From: Emticicia sp. 21SJ11W-3
GTDB taxonomy: Bacteria; Bacteroidota; Bacteroidia; Cytophagales; Spirosomataceae
Length of the DNA: 64,000 bases
NCBI RefSeq assembly: GCF_024138715.1
Contig: NZ_CP092074.1
Coordinates: 5,084,001-5,148,000, forward strand
Direction of reading: 5' to 3'
The notes beneath the pieces were generated by a model. It had not been told where the DNA came from. It saw only the letters and a list, made by a program, of their open reading frames with translations, and made no database searches. Positions 3,191 to 23,522 of the stretch are shown here, in pieces (positions within the stretch are counted from its first letter, which is position 1; the number at the start of each line of letters is the position of its first letter). A program made the translations under genes and the position numbers.

Positions 3191-5740
3191 ATGAATAAGT
3201 TTATCAGTATCCTAAGTTTGGCAGCCCTTGTTGGTTTCTCTGCTGCAGCGCAATTTCCGGGCGGACCCGGCGGAATGGGCGGCCAGAGAGGAGACGGCAA
3301 TGGCAGACCCAATAATGCCCAGCAAACACCCCAACTTAACCTTGATGGAAACGCTCCGAAAGGAAACTCGAAAATATCCGGCTTTGTAGTTGATGAGGCC
3401 GTAACAACCGCGGTAGAGTTTGCTAACGTAGCCCTTTATAACAAGGCAACCAACAAAGTGGTAGACGGAACAATGGCCGACGAAAAAGGAAAATTTTCTT
3501 TAACCAGAGTAGCCGCCGGCGAGTATAAGCTGGTTATCAGTTTTATTGGTTATGCTGACAAGGTAATTGATAATATAAAAGTTGAAAAAGGAAAAGATAT
3601 TGACCTGGGCGTAATTAAATTATCTACCAGTGCCAAACAATTGGACGAGGTGACGGTAACCGCCGAAAAATCAATGATTGAAGAGAAAGTTGACCGCCTT
3701 GTGTATAATGCAGAAAAAGATATAACATCTAAAGGTGGTGACGCAGCCGATGTATTAAGAAAAGTACCTTTGCTGACGGTAGACCTTGACGGTAACGTTT
3801 CGCTACGTGGTACGTCTAATATCAGAGTATTAATCAACAATAAGCCTTCAACCATTATAGCCAGCAGTATTGCAGATGCGCTTAAAATGATTCCGTCAGA
3901 CCTCATCAAGTCGGTTGAAGTGATTACCTCACCTTCGGCCAAATATGATGCTGAGGGCTCAGGTGGTATCATTAACATTATTACAAAAAAGAGTTCTATT
4001 GAAGGGTTAACTTTAAACCTGGACTCGGGTGTAGGCGTAAGGGGCTCTAATCTGGGCCTGAACGGCAATATCCGTAAAGGTAAACTGGGTATCTCAATGG
4101 GTGGCGGTGGCCGGGCTTTTTATAATAAGGCGGCTACTTCGCTAGACCAGAGTACTTTAAGAGGCGGCAATACGGTATTGACAAAACAAACTGCTGATGC
4201 CTTTGACAACGGCTTGTTTGGAAGATATAATCTTGGTTTTGACTATGACATTGCCAAGAACCAGTCGCTTACCGCGGGCATTAATCTGGGTACACGTAAT
4301 TTTATCAGAACGCAAGACTACACCACCAGTCTTTATACCAATAATGTTTTTAATTCTACGGCATACAGAAATGTAGACAGCAAAGATCTTTCAAGCTCAA
4401 TTGATGTAAACCTTGATTACATTCGTACTTTCAAACCATCGCAAGAGTGGTCGGTTTCAACACAATACAGTAAGAGTAATCTTAAAAATAACTTTCTGGC
4501 AGACTTACTGAACGAATCAGGAGGCCTTACAAGCCGCCAGAAAAACCTGAACGGTAATACTAATCAGGAGTTTACGTTGCAGACTGACTTCCAGACCCCG
4601 ATAAAACAGAATCAGGTATTTGAAGTAGGCGTGAAAGGCATTTTCAGACAGGTAAACAGCGATTTCAGCTATCTTTTTGCCGGCCCGACAGGCGACTTTG
4701 CCACTGATGCCAGAAACCCATCCGGCTTGCTAGACTACTCGCAGAACATAGCCTCAGGCTATATGTCATATACCTACTCAACCAAAAACAAGTATGTGTT
4801 TAAAGTGGGTGCCCGTTACGAATACACAACTATTGAGGCAAAAGATCAGGTAAAAGATATTAATATACCTTCTTATGGTAATCTGGTGCCGAGTGTAAAC
4901 GTTTCAAAAACTATTGGTGCTACTACCTTAAAGGCAGCATATAACAAGCGTATTCAGCGCCCGGGCTTGCAACAGTTAAACCCTAACTTTAATGCAGCCA
5001 ACCCGCAGAACATTACCATTGGTAACCCGAGCCTTCGTCCGGAAATAACTGACAATTTCGAACTAAGCGCCAGTGCAAACATCAAAAAGGTTTATCTGAA
5101 CGCCTCAGTGTTCGGCCGCCAGACCAACAATTCTATCTTGCGCCTGAGCGCACCTTCTGACACCCTGGCCGGTGCAATTGTTACCACATTTGAGAACATA
5201 GGTAAACAACAGATGTACGGTACGAACATATTCGGAAACCTGAACATTACTCCAAAATGGTCGGTAAATGCAGGTATTGACCTATACTACAGCTATCTGG
5301 AAGGTATGGCGCAGGGCTCAGACGGGGTGTCGTCACTTATCAGTAACGACGGTGTGGTTATAGGTGGCCGTCTGCAAACGCAGATTCAGCTGAAAAACGG
5401 CTGGGGTATACAAGGCTTTAGCTTTTTCAGAGGTAACCAGATACAGTTGCAGGGTACCCAGGGTAGCTTCTATATGTACTCGCTTGGTTTCAGAAAAGAT
5501 TTCAAAAACAAAAAAGGAAGCCTGGGCTTAGCTACCGAGAACTTTCTGGGCGGTATAAAAGTAAAAACAACATTAAACTCGGCGCAGTTTAATCAGGTAA
5601 GTGTTAATAATATTTACAACCAGAACGTAAGGCTGACATTCAGTTACAAAATAGGAAATATGAGAATGGTAGAGAAGAAAACCAAATCGGTTAAGAACGA
5701 TGACGTGAAGGCAGGAGAAAGTAATAATATGAACAACTAA
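3191..5740 (+). CDS. TonB-dependent receptor-like outer-membrane beta-barrel protein
   Basis: The ATG at 3191 was chosen because it opens a clean signal peptide (MNKFISILSLAALVGFSAAAQ); an earlier in-frame ATG at 3029 would add 54 residues with no such logic. The 849-residue protein has a Gly/Pro-rich mature N terminus (about 22-60), a carboxypeptidase-like regulatory domain (about 62-145, SGFVVDEAV...), a plug-like domain with VLINNKPS and SAKYDAEGSGGIINIITKK (about 160-270), then a long beta-barrel ending in a short basic tail. It belongs to the 'outer membrane beta-barrel family' group, which lacks a SusD partner; none is encoded nearby. The substrate is unknown. It is transcribed alone, with a hairpin terminator after it. 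Confidence 0.88.
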   Translation: MNKFISILSLAALVGFSAAAQFPGGPGGMGGQRGDGNGRPNNAQQTPQLNLDGNAPKGNSKISGFVVDEAVTTAVEFANVALYNKATNKVVDGTMADEKGKFSLTRVAAGEYKLVISFIGYADKVIDNIKVEKGKDIDLGVIKLSTSAKQLDEVTVTAEKSMIEEKVDRLVYNAEKDITSKGGDAADVLRKVPLLTVDLDGNVSLRGTSNIRVLINNKPSTIIASSIADALKMIPSDLIKSVEVITSPSAKYDAEGSGGIINIITKKSSIEGLTLNLDSGVGVRGSNLGLNGNIRKGKLGISMGGGGRAFYNKAATSLDQSTLRGGNTVLTKQTADAFDNGLFGRYNLGFDYDIAKNQSLTAGINLGTRNFIRTQDYTTSLYTNNVFNSTAYRNVDSKDLSSSIDVNLDYIRTFKPSQEWSVSTQYSKSNLKNNFLADLLNESGGLTSRQKNLNGNTNQEFTLQTDFQTPIKQNQVFEVGVKGIFRQVNSDFSYLFAGPTGDFATDARNPSGLLDYSQNIASGYMSYTYSTKNKYVFKVGARYEYTTIEAKDQVKDINIPSYGNLVPSVNVSKTIGATTLKAAYNKRIQRPGLQQLNPNFNAANPQNITIGNPSLRPEITDNFELSASANIKKVYLNASVFGRQTNNSILRLSAPSDTLAGAIVTTFENIGKQQMYGTNIFGNLNITPKWSVNAGIDLYYSYLEGMAQGSDGVSSLISNDGVVIGGRLQTQIQLKNGWGIQGFSFFRGNQIQLQGTQGSFYMYSLGFRKDFKNKKGSLGLATENFLGGIKVKTTLNSAQFNQVSVNNIYNQNVRLTFSYKIGNMRMVEKKTKSVKNDDVKAGESNNMNN

Positions 5741-5784
5741 GGATTTTCAAAATTAGGTTTTTTATAGTTTTGTTTTAGTTAAAG

Positions 5785-5807
5785 GAGCTATCTTTCATTG
5801 ATAGCTC
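5785..5807 (+). terminator. Hairpin terminator after the receptor
   Basis: GAGCTATC (5785-5792) pairs with GATAGCTC (5800-5807) around a 7-base loop and is followed by a T-rich tail. It lies between convergent genes, so it may serve both strands. Confidence 0.65.
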
Positions 5808-5812
5808 TCTTT

Positions 5813-6385
5813 CTATTTTTTAGGCTTGATACTCTTGATAATGTCTGCTTTTCTCAGGATGATGCTCCAGACGGCAAAACCTGAATTATCGCTGAAACAT
5901 AGTTTCCCAGCACCTTTTTCAGCTGCGATAGGAGCCGTGTAGATATAGAGGGAGTCGCCAACGCTTTGAATATTGCTGCTCAAAGTTTGTTTCTGAGCCG
6001 CAATATCTGCATAGGCTTCAAGCACTTCTTTTTCTTTGGCATACAGGGTTTTATTGCTGCCAATGTCTGGCTGGCCCAGTAAGCGCACCTTCAGGTTATA
6101 CCTGTTTGCCACTGAATCAAGCAAGGGGATATTTTTAAGCTGGCATATTTCTTCAAGACGCGCCCCTGTTGCACCTTTCAGTTGTTTTTCCAGTTCGCCT
6201 GACAAATCAGTGCTTATCCGGCTACCCAACACTTCTACCTGCTCCATTATCTGGGCGGGCGACACCTTCTTTATTTTGTGTCCTTCCATTTCCTCTTTCA
6301 CTTCGGTAGTATCCAGACGTTCCACGTTTGAGCAGGCAAACTGGGTCAGACACAAGCTTAGTATTAAAACACTATTCTTAGCCAT
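5813..6385 (-). CDS. Predicted lipoprotein of unknown function
   Basis: The 190-residue product starts with a hydrophobic segment ending in LTQFAC, a lipobox-like site with Cys18, so it is probably a lipoprotein. The rest is soluble and helical. The order of elements (SPAQIMEQVEVLGSRISTDL, then a Cys-containing ICQLKN, then YIYTAPIAAEKGAGKLCF near the C terminus) is reminiscent of the small Tll0287/DUF3365 haem-sensor-like fold, but the usual CxxCH is absent, so this is a weak suggestion only. It begins 9 bases after the guanylyltransferase stop and is likely cotranscribed. I do not assign a function. Confidence 0.6.
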   Translation of the reverse strand: MAKNSVLILSLCLTQFACSNVERLDTTEVKEEMEGHKIKKVSPAQIMEQVEVLGSRISTDLSGELEKQLKGATGARLEEICQLKNIPLLDSVANRYNLKVRLLGQPDIGSNKTLYAKEKEVLEAYADIAAQKQTLSSNIQSVGDSLYIYTAPIAAEKGAGKLCFSDNSGFAVWSIILRKADIIKSIKPKK

Positions 6386-19217: not shown

Positions 19218-20261
19218 TTATTTATTAACGGCGCTTTCGTTTAGTGTAATGCTTCCTTTGGTTGCATCAATAGTAGCTTTAATACCAACAGGTACAGTAA
19301 ATTTATCTTTTATATGGCCTATCATAGCGCCTGAGAATGCCGGGATGCTCAAGGGCCTGATATGGTCTTCAAAAATATCTTCCATAGTTAAAGAGCCATA
19401 GCCTCCTTTTGACGGCGGGCAGTCGGTACACTTACCAAATATAAAACCCGAAAGCTGGTTTAAAATACCTGCCAGTTTCAGTTGGGTAATCATCCTGTCC
19501 ATACGGTAAATATCTTCCCCCACATCTTCCAGAAATAATATGTTGCCCTTAAAATCAGGCACATAAGGCGAACCAAGTATATGGCTCAATACAGTCAGGT
19601 TGCCACCAAGTAATGTGCCTGTAGCTACTCCGGGATTAATGATATTTATACGGTCATCTACCTGCACCAGATTATCCCCTTTTTTTACCGGATTGGTCAT
19701 TTGCACGGCATTGGCTTCTATCAATACATTCTTAAAATTTTCAACAGAAAAGCTGTTCCAGGTTGAAGAACCTACCGGCCCATGAAAAGTAACAAGCCCT
19801 GTCTGGCTGTAAATGCCCAGCAACAAAGCGGTTATGTCGCTGTAGCCAATAAAAACTTTAGGGTTTTGCTGAATGGTTTTATAATCAAGCAAAGGTAGAA
19901 TTCTGGCACAACCCCAGCCGCCATGCATGGCCATTATGCCGTTAATGCTTTTATCGGCAAACATTTTATTGATGTCGGCGGCTCTGTCGGCATCTGTTCC
20001 TGCCAGATACCCGTATCGGTCAAACATGTGGTCGCCCTTTTTCACTTTAAAACCCAATGTTTCCAGGCTTTCAATGGTTATCTGCACTTCTTCTTTTAAA
20101 AATGCCGAATAGGCCGGGCAAACCAGCCCGATGGTATCGCCCGGTTTCAGCGCCGCCGGTTTTAAAGTTTTAAGCTGGTTATCAGGAAAAGAAAAATTCA
20201 GATTGGCCAGCCCTATACCAGCCAGCAGGCTTGAACTGAGAAAATGTCGACGATCAGGCAT
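19218..20261 (-). CDS. LD-carboxypeptidase, S66 family
   Basis: The enzyme removes the terminal D-Ala from muramoyl tetrapeptides during murein recycling. The 347-residue protein has an N-terminal signal sequence with a twin Arg (MPDRRHFLSSSLLAGIGL), suggesting Tat export, so it acts outside the cytoplasm, unlike E. coli LdcA. The catalytic Ser lies in IGYSDITALL (about 148), with the Glu of LFLEDVGEDIYRMDRM and the His of GHIKDKFTVPVG completing the Ser-Glu-His triad. LKPGDTIGLVCPAY is the family N-terminal motif. The stop lies just after the shared terminator. Confidence 0.92.
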   Translation of the reverse strand: MPDRRHFLSSSLLAGIGLANLNFSFPDNQLKTLKPAALKPGDTIGLVCPAYSAFLKEEVQITIESLETLGFKVKKGDHMFDRYGYLAGTDADRAADINKMFADKSINGIMAMHGGWGCARILPLLDYKTIQQNPKVFIGYSDITALLLGIYSQTGLVTFHGPVGSSTWNSFSVENFKNVLIEANAVQMTNPVKKGDNLVQVDDRINIINPGVATGTLLGGNLTVLSHILGSPYVPDFKGNILFLEDVGEDIYRMDRMITQLKLAGILNQLSGFIFGKCTDCPPSKGGYGSLTMEDIFEDHIRPLSIPAFSGAMIGHIKDKFTVPVGIKATIDATKGSITLNESAVNK

Positions 20262-20318
20262 TTTTTCGATGAAGTAGGTGTGATTAATAAATTTCTATCT
20301 GCTAAACTACAAAAAAAA

Positions 20319-20348
20319 GGGAGTTTATGAACAGATTCACAAACTCCC
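20319..20348 (-). terminator. Terminator after leuA
   Basis: Read leftward, GGGAGTTTGTGAA (20336-20348) pairs with TTCATAAACTCCC (20319-20331), with one G-T pair and a 4-base loop, and is followed by eight T. leuA therefore appears to be transcribed alone. Confidence 0.85.
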
Positions 20349-20373
20349 TTATCAGAATCGACAGGCCTGTTTT

Positions 20374-21528
20374 TCAGGAAACAGCAACCTCTTTCATCAA
20401 CAATACCAGGTCTTTATCATTTACTTCCTTAATTCTGTCGGCAAGCTCAAGGAAGCGACTATACGTATAATCAATTTCGGGTTTATCAAGATTATAACCC
20501 AGTTTTTCCAAACGGTGTTTTAAAGCATGGCGGCCGCTTCTGGCAGTAAGCACAATAGACGACTTATCTACGCCAACCTCTTGCGGGCTGATAATCTCGT
20601 AGTTTTCGGTATGTTTCAGGAAGCCATCCTGATGAATACCCGACGAGTGCGCAAAGGCATTACGGCCCACAATGGCTTTATTGGCCTGCACAGGCATACG
20701 CATGGTATCAGAAACCAAATTACTGATAGGCGCAAGCATGGTGCTTTCAATATTGGTATGATAACCAAGCGATTTGTGCACTTTCAGAATCATGGCTACT
20801 TCTTCCAGCGAAGTATTACCAGCGCGCTCACCAATACCGTTGATGGTTACTTCTACCTGTCTTGCTCCGGCTTGAATACCCGCAATGGTATTGGCAGTAG
20901 CCAGACCTAAATCGTTATGGTTGTGCATGGAAATAATGGCTTTGTCTACATTTGGCACATTATTCATGATATATGAAATACGCTGATACATTTCATGTGG
21001 CAGCACATATCCTGTTGTATCGGGCAGGTTTACTACTGTAGCGCCTGCTTTGATAACCTCGTCGGTCAGTTTTGACAAAAACTCAAGATCGGCACGACCA
21101 GAGTCTTCAGCATAAAACTCTACGTCTTCAACAAACTTTTTAGCATGCTTCACTGCTGAAATGGCCTGTTCAATAATCTGTTCGCGAGTACTGTTAAATT
21201 TATGTTTGATGTGAATATCAGAAGCCCCAATACCGGTATGTATACGCGGCCGTTTGGCATATTTCAGGGCTTCAGCAGCAGACTCAATGTCACCCTTGAT
21301 TGCTCTTGAAAGGGCACAAACCGTTGGTTCTGTAACGGCTTTAGAAACCGCTACAACAGAGTTGAAATCGCCGGGACTTGAAATCGGGAAACCTGCTTCA
21401 ATAATATCGACACCCAGCTTTTCCAGCTGCTTGGCAATCATAACCTTTTCGTCGGTTGTTAACTGGCAACCGGGCACTTGTTCTCCATCTCGTAAGGTGG
21501 TGTCGAAAACATAAATTTTCTGGCTCAT
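20374..21528 (-). CDS. leuA: 2-isopropylmalate synthase, short form without regulatory domain
   Basis: This enzyme condenses 2-ketoisovalerate with acetyl-CoA in the first committed step of leucine synthesis. The catalytic TIM barrel shows [12 protein letters not shown] (about 9-20), with metal- and substrate-binding residues, and [37 protein letters not shown] (in two pieces, about 199-235), the second family signature. At 384 residues it stops after the linker helices and lacks the C-terminal LeuA dimer domain, present in the usual roughly 510-residue enzyme, that binds leucine. No leuBCD genes are adjacent. Homocitrate or citramalate synthase is an alternative, but the leucine-codon leader upstream (21637-21693) favours leuA. 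Confidence 0.85.
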
Positions 21529-21576
21529 TGCTTAATGAGGTGTTTAGTTATTTTTACTACTTCTTTTTTCTCGCAA

Positions 21577-21613
21577 AAAAGCCCTTTCTCACCATGTGCA
21601 AGAAAGGGCTTTT
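21577..21613 (-). terminator. Attenuator terminator hairpin in leuA leader
   Basis: Read leftward, a 13-base arm (21601-21613, AAAAGCCCTTTCT) pairs perfectly with AGAAAGGGCTTTT (21577-21589) around an 11-base loop and runs into six T. It lies between the leuA promoter and the leuA start, about 50 bases before the ATG, so it would stop transcription before the gene unless disrupted. Confidence 0.85.
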
Positions 21614-21642
21614 GATTTATACAAAGTCTCCGTTTCTCACAC
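21596..21642 (-). promoter_or_regulatory. Candidate antiterminator pairing in leuA leader
   Basis: Read leftward, GTGTGAGAAACGG (21630-21642), which spans the leader stop codon, can pair with CCCTTTCTTGCAC (21596-21608): ten continuous pairs including two G-U, one C-C mismatch, then two G-C pairs. The second strand covers most of the terminator's 5' arm, so the two helices are mutually exclusive, as in ribosome-mediated attenuation. Confidence 0.7.
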
Positions 21643-21693
21643 TGAAAAGCTGAGCAGAAGGAGAAGTGAAATTGCGATTACGTTTTGTTTCAA
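21637..21693 (-). CDS. Leucine leader peptide of leuA (18 codons)
   Basis: A short frame read leftward from a TTG at 21691-21693 encodes MKQNVIAISLLLLLSFSV and ends with TGA at 21637-21639. Five consecutive codons (21652-21666) specify leucine, using CTT, CTC and CTG. It starts about 25 bases downstream of a well-formed promoter and ends just before the terminator. Stalling at these codons under leucine shortage would leave 21630-21642 free to form the antiterminator, while a ribosome reaching the stop would cover it. No ATG is available in frame, so TTG initiation is inferred. Confidence 0.65.
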   Translation of the reverse strand: MKQNVIAISLLLLLSFSV

Positions 21694-21718
21694 TTGCTTT
21701 TTGAAATTACTAAGGACA

Positions 21719-21749
21719 CAAATTTAACACATTATTTTTTTCCGGCAAA
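21719..21749 (-). promoter_or_regulatory. leuA promoter
   Basis: Read leftward, TTTG (21746-21749), then 19 bases, then TAAATTTG (21719-21726) is an exact match to the Bacteroidota vegetative promoter TTTG-N19-TAnnTTTG. Transcription would start near 21713, placing the whole leader and attenuator in the transcript. Confidence 0.8.
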
Positions 21750-22070
21750 AACTTCTTTTTATTTTTTTCAAACCGGGCTTACTGCTTTTTTAACTACTGT
21801 AAGGGTTTCCGGTTTCAGGGTTATATACTGTGTTTTGGCAGGTTCAGGCTATCAATAGAGGATATTTCAACCACCTTCAGGATAGGGCACCTGCTTTTTT
21901 ATTATCATTTAATAAATATTTAAACGACTGAATATTAGGCACTTATATATTAGGTCATTTTTGACACAAATAGGCTTGCCGTATAAATCAACAGGGTTTA
22001 TTCGGTAATTCTCATAAATAGTTATTATTTTTGCGACGTTCTCAGGGTTAAGAAATATTTTATTTTAAAT
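21750..22070. other. Spacer between leuA promoter and pyruvate kinase
   Basis: This 321-base AT-rich spacer has one structured element: GCAGGT (21838-21843) and GCTATC (21848-21853) pair in order with ACCTGC (21889-21894) and GATAG (21881-21885), followed by six T on the plus strand. It could be a small RNA terminator or gene remnant. Minus-strand frames around 21785-21900 look faintly protein-like but are broken by stops. A pyk promoter candidate TATTTTTG lies at 22026-22033. Confidence 0.4.
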
Positions 22071-23522
22071 ATGCACAGAAAAACCAAAATTGTAGCCACA
22101 GTCGGACCAGCTTCTGAAAGTGAAGAAATGCTATTGGCACTGGCTAAAGCCGGTGTAAATGTTTTCCGTTTAAATTTCTCTCACGGAACCCACGAAGACC
22201 ACCAGATGCGTATTAGCCGTATCAGGAAAATAAACGCTGAACATGGTTTTAAATGCGCTATTCTGCAGGATTTACAAGGCCCGAAAATCAGAATAGGCCA
22301 GATGGAAACAGGTAATGAGGGTGTTGAAATTTTTGCTGGCGACAAACTGGTATTTACTAACGAAGATGTAATCGGAAACGGTCAGCGTGTGAGCACCCCT
22401 TATAAGGGTATGTATCAGGACGTGAAGCTGGGTGAAAGAATATTGATGGACGACGGCAAGCTGGAAGTAAAAGTAACCGGCGTTGACGGAATGGACGTTA
22501 TTACAGAAGTAGTATATGGCGGCCTTTTAAAACAAAAGAAAGGTGTAAACCTGCCTAATACCAATATTTCTCAGCCATCGGTTACAGAAAAAGACTGGGA
22601 AGACCTGAAATTTGGTTTATTGAATGATGTAGACTGGATAGCCCTTTCTTTTGTAAGAACAGCAGACGAAATAAAGGATATACAGAATTACATAAAAGCG
22701 CAGGGAAAAGAGGCAAAGGTTATTGCCAAGATAGAAAAGCCGGAAGCGGTTGACAACATGGACTCTATCATTGCCGCAACAGATGGTATTATGGTAGCCC
22801 GTGGAGACCTCGGTGTGGAGATTCCGTCAGAAGACGTGCCATTGATTCAGAAAGCTTTGGTTGAAAAATCTAATCTGGCTGCCAAACCTGTAATTGTGGC
22901 AACACAAATGCTTGAAAGCATGATTGACAGCCCCCGCCCAACCCGTGCAGAGGTTGGTGATGTGGCCAATGCTGTATTAGATGGTGCAGATGCCGTAATG
23001 CTAAGTGCAGAAAGCGCCTCTGGTAAATATCCTATTCTTGCGGTTGAAACAATGGTAAAAACCATTGAAAAAGTAGAGAACGAAGCCGACTGGAAGAAAT
23101 TATATTACCGCCACCATGCCCGTGTTACGGAAGACTCTTATAAGTCTGAAGAAAAAGAAAACGATAACGTGGTAATGAACGCCTGCCGCCTGGCACGTGA
23201 CCTGAAAGTAAAAGCCATCATTGGCATTACTACCTCTGGTTATACGGCTGTTCGTTTATCGCATCACCGCCCTAAGGCCAATACATTTATCTTCACCGGA
23301 AACGAAAAGCTTTTAACCCAGTTGAGTTTGTATTCGGGCATTACTGCTTTTAAATACAATCACCTGAAAGATAAAAGTGTAGAAGAAGTAGTGGCTAACA
23401 TCAGAGATACCCTGGTTGAAAAAGGAGAGCTTGCTGCCGGAGATTTGTTTGTAAATACCCTAAGTATGCCTCTTCATGAAAACCACCGGACCAACACTAT
23501 CAAATTAAGCCGGGTTGAATAA
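22071..23522 (+). CDS. pyk: Pyruvate kinase
   Basis: This glycolytic enzyme transfers phosphate from phosphoenolpyruvate to ADP, yielding pyruvate and ATP. The 483-residue protein has the start RKTKIVATVGPAS, NFSHG (substrate and K+ site), the active-site motif IAKIEKPEAVDN (about 223-234) with the catalytic Lys, and VARGDLGVEIP for metal binding. The C-terminal allosteric domain (about 355-475) is complete. It is monocistronic, divergent from leuA, with a TAnnTTTG element at 22026-22033 and a terminator at 23543. Confidence 0.97.
   Translation: MHRKTKIVATVGPASESEEMLLALAKAGVNVFRLNFSHGTHEDHQMRISRIRKINAEHGFKCAILQDLQGPKIRIGQMETGNEGVEIFAGDKLVFTNEDVIGNGQRVSTPYKGMYQDVKLGERILMDDGKLEVKVTGVDGMDVITEVVYGGLLKQKKGVNLPNTNISQPSVTEKDWEDLKFGLLNDVDWIALSFVRTADEIKDIQNYIKAQGKEAKVIAKIEKPEAVDNMDSIIAATDGIMVARGDLGVEIPSEDVPLIQKALVEKSNLAAKPVIVATQMLESMIDSPRPTRAEVGDVANAVLDGADAVMLSAESASGKYPILAVETMVKTIEKVENEADWKKLYYRHHARVTEDSYKSEEKENDNVVMNACRLARDLKVKAIIGITTSGYTAVRLSHHRPKANTFIFTGNEKLLTQLSLYSGITAFKYNHLKDKSVEEVVANIRDTLVEKGELAAGDLFVNTLSMPLHENHRTNTIKLSRVE

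Follow-up and report, generated by a model that had tools for sequence, protein, structure and literature searches.

A very probable leucine-specific transcription attenuator upstream of leuA in Emticicia, with related leaders before ilvD

The leader of leuA in Emticicia sp. 21SJ11W-3 is, judging from its sequence, very probably a leucine-specific, ribosome-mediated transcription attenuator. In the stretch of 64,000 nucleotides analysed here, which we refer to as the window, the minus strand carries, in this order before leuA, a promoter, a leader frame, a segment around the stop codon (segment 2), a terminator and six T. These parts, their order and spacing, their conservation, the codon specificity and the compensatory pairing emerge from the sequence and its comparison with relatives. 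NCBI places Emticicia in Cytophagales, Leadbetterellaceae; in the following, ‘family’ means the grouping of the genome tool that we used, which includes genera such as Siphonobacter and Flectobacillus.

The gene itself (20374–21528, minus strand; start codon ATG at 21528) encodes a 2-isopropylmalate synthase of 384 residues, which scores above the cut-off of NCBIfam NF002086.0 and is 92–94% identical to the LeuA proteins of Emticicia sp. C21, Emticicia sp. BO119 and E. agri, the closest named ones. Pfam detects the HMGL-like and HCS_D2 domains in it, and no LeuA_dimer, the C-terminal allosteric domain. Given the absence of this domain, the committed step may be controlled by leucine mainly through attenuation. 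leuA lies apart from leuC, which is found elsewhere in the genome; a paralogue in the leuC cluster (4675–6192 of locus L234) carries a LeuA allosteric domain and is probably a citramalate synthase.

All elements of the leader are read on the minus strand. The putative promoter (21719–21749) is of the Bacteroidota type, TTTG-N19-TAAATTTG, with the TTTG box at 21749–21746, a spacer of 19 bases and TAAATTTG at 21726–21719. The leader frame (21637–21693) starts with TTG at 21693, comprises 18 codons, ends with TGA at 21639–21637 and would encode (M)KQNVIAISLLLLLSFSV; its control codons are five consecutive Leu codons, CTT CTC CTT CTG CTC (21652–21666). The leader stop and the leuA start are separated by 108 bases, within which a predicted strong intrinsic terminator is located (21577–21613). 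Its arms, AAAAGCCCTTTCT (21613–21601) and AGAAAGGGCTTTT (21589–21577), form 13 perfect Watson-Crick pairs, and two G.U pairs and one C-G pair extend the stem to 16 pairs around the loop ACATG (21597–21593). A run of six T follows (21575–21580), the first four of which are also part of the stem. From the positions of promoter and terminator, we infer a terminated leader RNA of about 138 nt (21575–21712) that would start near 21712 and end with the T run. The predicted antiterminator consists of segment 2 (21630–21642), which holds the leader stop codon, and segment 3 (21596–21608), which it has in common with the 5' arm and loop of the terminator; here, GTGTGAGAAACGG (21642–21630) and CCCTTTCTTGCAC (21608–21596) can form 12 pairs, two of them G.U. 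The preliminary description of this DNA had listed the promoter, the five Leu codons, the 13-bp terminator and the T run, which are all found on reading the sequence, as are the 12 pairs and the overlap between leader stop and antiterminator that it had reported; the coordinates that it gave proved right.

We infer from this arrangement that leader translation, ribosome stalling, termination and leucine control would be linked as follows. RNA polymerase would start near 21712, and a ribosome would translate the short leader. When charged leucyl-tRNA is ample, this ribosome would proceed to the stop codon and cover segment 2, which would block the predicted antiterminator and leave segment 3 free for segment 4, so that transcription would end near 21575. 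When charged leucyl-tRNA is scarce, the ribosome would stall in the Leu run, and segment 2, left uncovered, could pair with segment 3 ahead of the synthesis of segment 4; the terminator would then not form in time, and leuA would be transcribed.

Within the genus, the element is strongly conserved. We aligned ten upstream regions, nine from the genus and one (L019) from a sister lineage, and the promoter, the TTG, the Leu run, the stop, segment 2 and the terminator are kept in all ten. L019 has the most altered segment 2 and one extra codon, and in L017, Ile replaces the first Leu, which leaves four consecutive Leu codons. Across the nine leaders of 18 codons, substitutions in the Leu run are synonymous with one exception (CTT to ATT), while codons outside the run vary freely and a third-position excess is absent. 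A covariance model built on the stretch from stop to terminator recovers the element in 11 of 11 genus genomes, each time at E 5e-13 or better; nine of these genomes were inside the model and two (G004 and G010) outside. Codon usage in the genus-set leaders is also distinctive: CTC accounts for 36% of the Leu codons (19/53) versus 5.3% in window ORFs of more than 200 residues, TTA for none of the 53 versus 18.0% in these long ORFs, and 51 of the 53 are CTN. Rare Leu codons would suit a sensitive sensor, but part of this bias could also help base pairing. The TTG start was named as the weakest point in the preliminary description, a worry that is now eased: it is invariant in the ten aligned leaders and is supported by the other 28 leuA leaders in our comparison (see below), which carry ATG at the same place, under a rule that chose ATG over TTG where both occurred. 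From this comparison, the start is probably real.

To describe the spread of the element beyond the genus, we turned to 118 relatives, 106 of which yielded a LeuA match, and took 90 upstream regions. Left out were nine genomes whose orthologues are more distant, none of them a member of the family and one (G104, as L278) without the element, as well as G004 with the gene at a contig end, G023 with only a paralogue, and five genomes with matches of E 1e-7 or weaker. Our rule required a terminator no more than 260 bases from leuA, preceded by a frame of 9–30 codons that ends 20–45 bases ahead of this terminator, irrespective of Leu content. A terminator is present in 39 of the 90 regions and is accompanied by a short frame in 38, at a distance from frame to terminator of 26–43 nt; the thirty-ninth terminator belongs to L014, whose upstream region is cut by a contig end. 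Dinucleotide shuffles produced a terminator in 2 of 900 cases and a terminator with a frame in none. Within the family, leader and terminator occur together in 36 of 70 cases, and elsewhere in the order in 2 of 20; by this rule, 34 of the 70 family leuA genes are without them, including the contig-cut L014. Some of these element-less genes are preceded by a frame that looks like leuB by eye, so that leuA may sit inside an operon there. Leu makes up 29.3% of the codons in the 38 leaders (183/624), compared with 10.4% when the same DNA is read in the +1 frame, no more than 5.8% in the +2 frame, and 8.6% in the long ORFs of the window. TTTG-N19-TAnnTTTG is found in 29 of the 38 attenuator-bearing upstream regions, including all ten of the genus set; in three of the 29 (L061, L073 and L078), only 4 bases separate the box from the ATG of the leader, and probably either the promoter or the leader start is misplaced.

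In a phylum-wide sample, LeuA was matched in 63 of 80 genomes. We examined 29 loci besides that of the window, and none of them combines leader and terminator, while one has a terminator and no frame; for the 27 loci sampled outside the order, this gives 0/27. In these genomes, leuA may lie inside operons. In a further collection of named organisms, many of whose genomes overlap the first set, 19 of 80 loci have a terminator within 400 bases and 17 of them a frame; 14 of the 17 frames are Leu leaders by eye, the exceptions being L146, L171 and L173.

The two mutually exclusive helices are supported by energetics and by compensatory changes. For the window, the antiterminator duplex has an energy of −16.7 kcal/mol, whereas 200 shuffles average −8.4 (z −3.2), and an alignment-free comparison of each stop-codon segment with its own terminator arm gives a mean z of −3.1 over 38 species, with a shuffle p of at least 0.05 in eight, four of them Emticicia. 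In the alignment of 37 distinct rows, 95.6% of the terminator cells are paired and 7 of 11 counted pairs show changes on both sides, a level reached by none of 500 shuffles. The antiterminator is paired in 78.2% of its cells, and 8 of its 12 pairs show both-sided changes, a number that 14 of 500 shuffles also attain; the two outermost pairs are intact in just 48% of cells. Its covariation score of 0.203 is 1.8 to 4 times that of slid versions (0.05–0.11), in a comparison that favours it over them, as the structure was taken from the window's sequence. The Leu codons, the terminator and the alternative helix, whose joint conservation and co-variation the preliminary description had proposed to look for, are thus indeed kept and co-varying in relatives, and its reading as classical attenuation is backed by this comparative evidence.

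We also simulated folding with a ribosome that was assumed to cover 13 bases beyond its A site. By a mild criterion, an antiterminator of at least 6 pairs is predicted in 38 of 38 leaders when this ribosome sits on a middle Leu codon and segment 4 is not yet made, and a terminator in 38 of 38 when it has reached the stop. By a stricter antiterminator criterion, 34 of 38 leaders succeed with their real spacers versus a mean of 6.2 with shuffled ones. For the leader in the window, adding segment 4 makes the terminator the fold of lowest energy, and this holds even when the third Leu codon is occupied by the ribosome; antitermination must therefore be a matter of timing. As long as segment 4 has not been made, the same RNA folds as the antiterminator if no ribosome is on it; in this model, an untranslated transcript might read through. 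A protector helix between the Leu region and segment 2, which would favour termination when the leader is not translated, does not exceed chance in Emticicia: measured against synonymous recodings, it is strong in only a few species, has a z of 0.0 in the window and a mean z of −0.8 over the 38.

The same genome contains a second element of the same layout upstream of ilvD. Its leader, MSQHRVIIVLIIHLLA (G000:C1 4435879–4435929, in L235), is rich in Val, Ile and Leu and precedes a terminator at 4435966–4435990; ilvD is followed by genes that resemble ilvB, ilvN, ilvC and ilvA by eye. Among the best 30 ilvD loci of the family, taken from 73 genomes, with the rule widened to terminators within 400 bases and frames ending 15–50 bases before the terminator, 21 have both terminator and frame and nine have neither. 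The codons of these 21 leaders are 19.9% Val, 19.9% Ile and 18.2% Leu, whereas those of the 38 leuA leaders are 3.5%, 9.8% and 29.3%, respectively (Fisher p 4e-16 for Leu versus Ile plus Val, with same-genus leaders not being independent), and the contrast is present also within the window's own genome. The z values of the ilvD antiterminator duplexes extend from −1.5 to −6.3; the former belongs to an outlier, L272, whose leader is not rich in Val, Ile and Leu.

The covariance model matches 116 of the 118 relatives at E 1 or better, mostly weakly. From these matches, we chose 20 further ones, 13 of which lie before ilvD (12 confirmed by position, L224 by eye), two before class IV aminotransferase genes and one before an EamA transporter gene. 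L214 and L224 have no ATG leader by the rule, and the genome of L214 has a TTG frame. The other four, L222, L225, L226 and L227, do not resemble attenuators. L217 and L228, from other families of the order, have leaders rich in Leu, Ile and Val and terminators before class IV aminotransferase genes, and L223, from the same family, has a Leu-containing leader and a terminator before the EamA transporter gene. In the window's own genome, we saw no similar leader before hisG, trpE and two aspartokinase genes, by eye and in the list of ATG frames, nor, by eye, in a stretch of 2.7 kb that runs from upstream of the leuC-leuD-cimA-leuB cluster into leuC (in this cluster, leuD and leuB were assigned by eye and the cimA-like gene by match); a codon-pattern search of this genome gave 50 matches and was uninformative. 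As a separate observation, L240 shows, by eye, a terminator-like hairpin with a T run about 60–110 bases before an aspartokinase gene and after a TATATTTG box, without an evident leader peptide.

Another recurrent feature is the palindrome GCGAAWWTTCGC, which 19 of 38 leuA and 13 of 21 ilvD attenuator upstream regions carry between the promoter and the start of the leader. It is found before ilvD in the window's own genome (L235 1250–1261; G000:C1 4435849–4435860) and, for instance, in L057 and L211 among the relatives, and is missing from the leader of leuA in the window. Where a TAnnTTTG box occurs, the palindrome begins 19 bases downstream of it in 13 of 16 leuA cases, and the distance is 22 bases for 10 of 11 ilvD cases. 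Ten genomes contain 2–6 sites each versus 0–2 for a control pattern, and other sites are found near genes for malate synthase, a class II glutamine amidotransferase (probably glutamate synthase), a POT transporter and an HTH/IrrE-type regulator. It is possibly an operator.

Of the other explanations that we considered, it seems highly unlikely that the hairpin is an ordinary terminator or processing signal and that the Leu run, untranslated, only reflects a pyrimidine-rich stretch pairing with segment 2, which is rich in purines. Leu codons are indeed pyrimidine-rich, 51 of 53 in the genus set being CTN, and the ribosome-free full fold pairs part of them with segment 2. Yet the Leu enrichment is confined to one frame, all but one of the substitutions in the run are synonymous, the ilvD leaders, built to the same layout, also encode Val and Ile, and in the window the pairing between Leu region and segment 2 does not exceed that of synonymous controls. 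Neither did we see a minus-strand gene that reads into the leader from upstream, the neighbour at 22071–23522 being divergent.

A terminator with a mutually exclusive helix would also fit control of this terminator by another leucine sensor, for instance a T-box, a riboswitch or an RNA-binding protein, an explanation that we nevertheless regard as exceedingly improbable. An Rfam scan of 20000–23000 gave four matches up to E 5, all far under the gathering scores and none of them a T-box or amino-acid leader; moreover, the conserved parts of a leader of only about 138 nt are already accounted for, and codon content tracks the pathway. We give just as little credence to a leader that acts on leuA translation or mRNA stability instead of termination. 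Gene-proximal leader frames may act by re-initiation, as proposed in PMC4833913, which gives a re-initiation peak in Bacteroidetes at 11–14 bp; by contrast, 108 bases and a strong terminator separate the leader stop from the leuA start, and compensatory changes maintain the terminator stem.

We lean towards the view that branched-chain amino acid synthesis in the family is under matched attenuators of this kind, with Leu codons for leuA, Val, Ile and Leu codons for the ilvD operon and, in some genomes, leaders before a class IV aminotransferase or an EamA transporter gene, often with the operator-like GCGAAWWTTCGC at a fixed distance from the promoter. If this is true, transcription and translation would have to be tightly coupled in these bacteria. 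Ribosome-mediated attenuation depends on a ribosome that follows RNA polymerase closely, so the element lends itself to a direct test of such coupling in a phylum that has unusual promoters and makes little use of Shine-Dalgarno sites, and the leuA and ilvD leaders, with one layout and different control codons, are a clean natural experiment. The mechanism of ribosome-mediated attenuation is already known, and the added value here is the comparative set.

The design is a textbook one and little described in this bacterial family. A search of titles and abstract starts in the open literature found no leucine or ilv attenuator in Bacteroidota, although such a search says little about true absence. 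In 2004, a comparative study by Vitreschak et al. reportedly named Bacteroidetes/Chlorobi in its abstract among the taxa with candidate attenuators, and a 2010 study by Lopatovskaya is likewise comparative. A close known counterpart is the attenuator of the enteric leu operon, with its leuL leader, a run of Leu codons, a terminator and a competing antiterminator. The element described here shares with it the short Leu-run leader, the terminator, the competing antiterminator and a leucine biosynthesis gene downstream, but differs in its sequence, its Bacteroidota promoter, its TTG start, the separation of leuA from leuC and the lack of an Rfam leader match. The preliminary description held the design to be best known from Gammaproteobacteria; it is known outside that group as well. 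In Bacteroides thetaiotaomicron, long 5' UTRs with short frames were found by manual inspection to be reminiscent of attenuation leaders (PMC7366714). A comparative genomics study of leader-peptide attenuators in Actinobacteria, whose text includes leuA, a leader peptide and leucine codons (PMC1262725), concerns a different phylum. Finally, the ilv attenuators of E. coli and Corynebacterium (PMC10272879) resemble the ilvD element of our genome in having a leader rich in branched-chain residues before ilv genes, but belong to other lineages, with other sequences and operons; here, by contrast, leuA and ilvD share one layout and differ in their codons.
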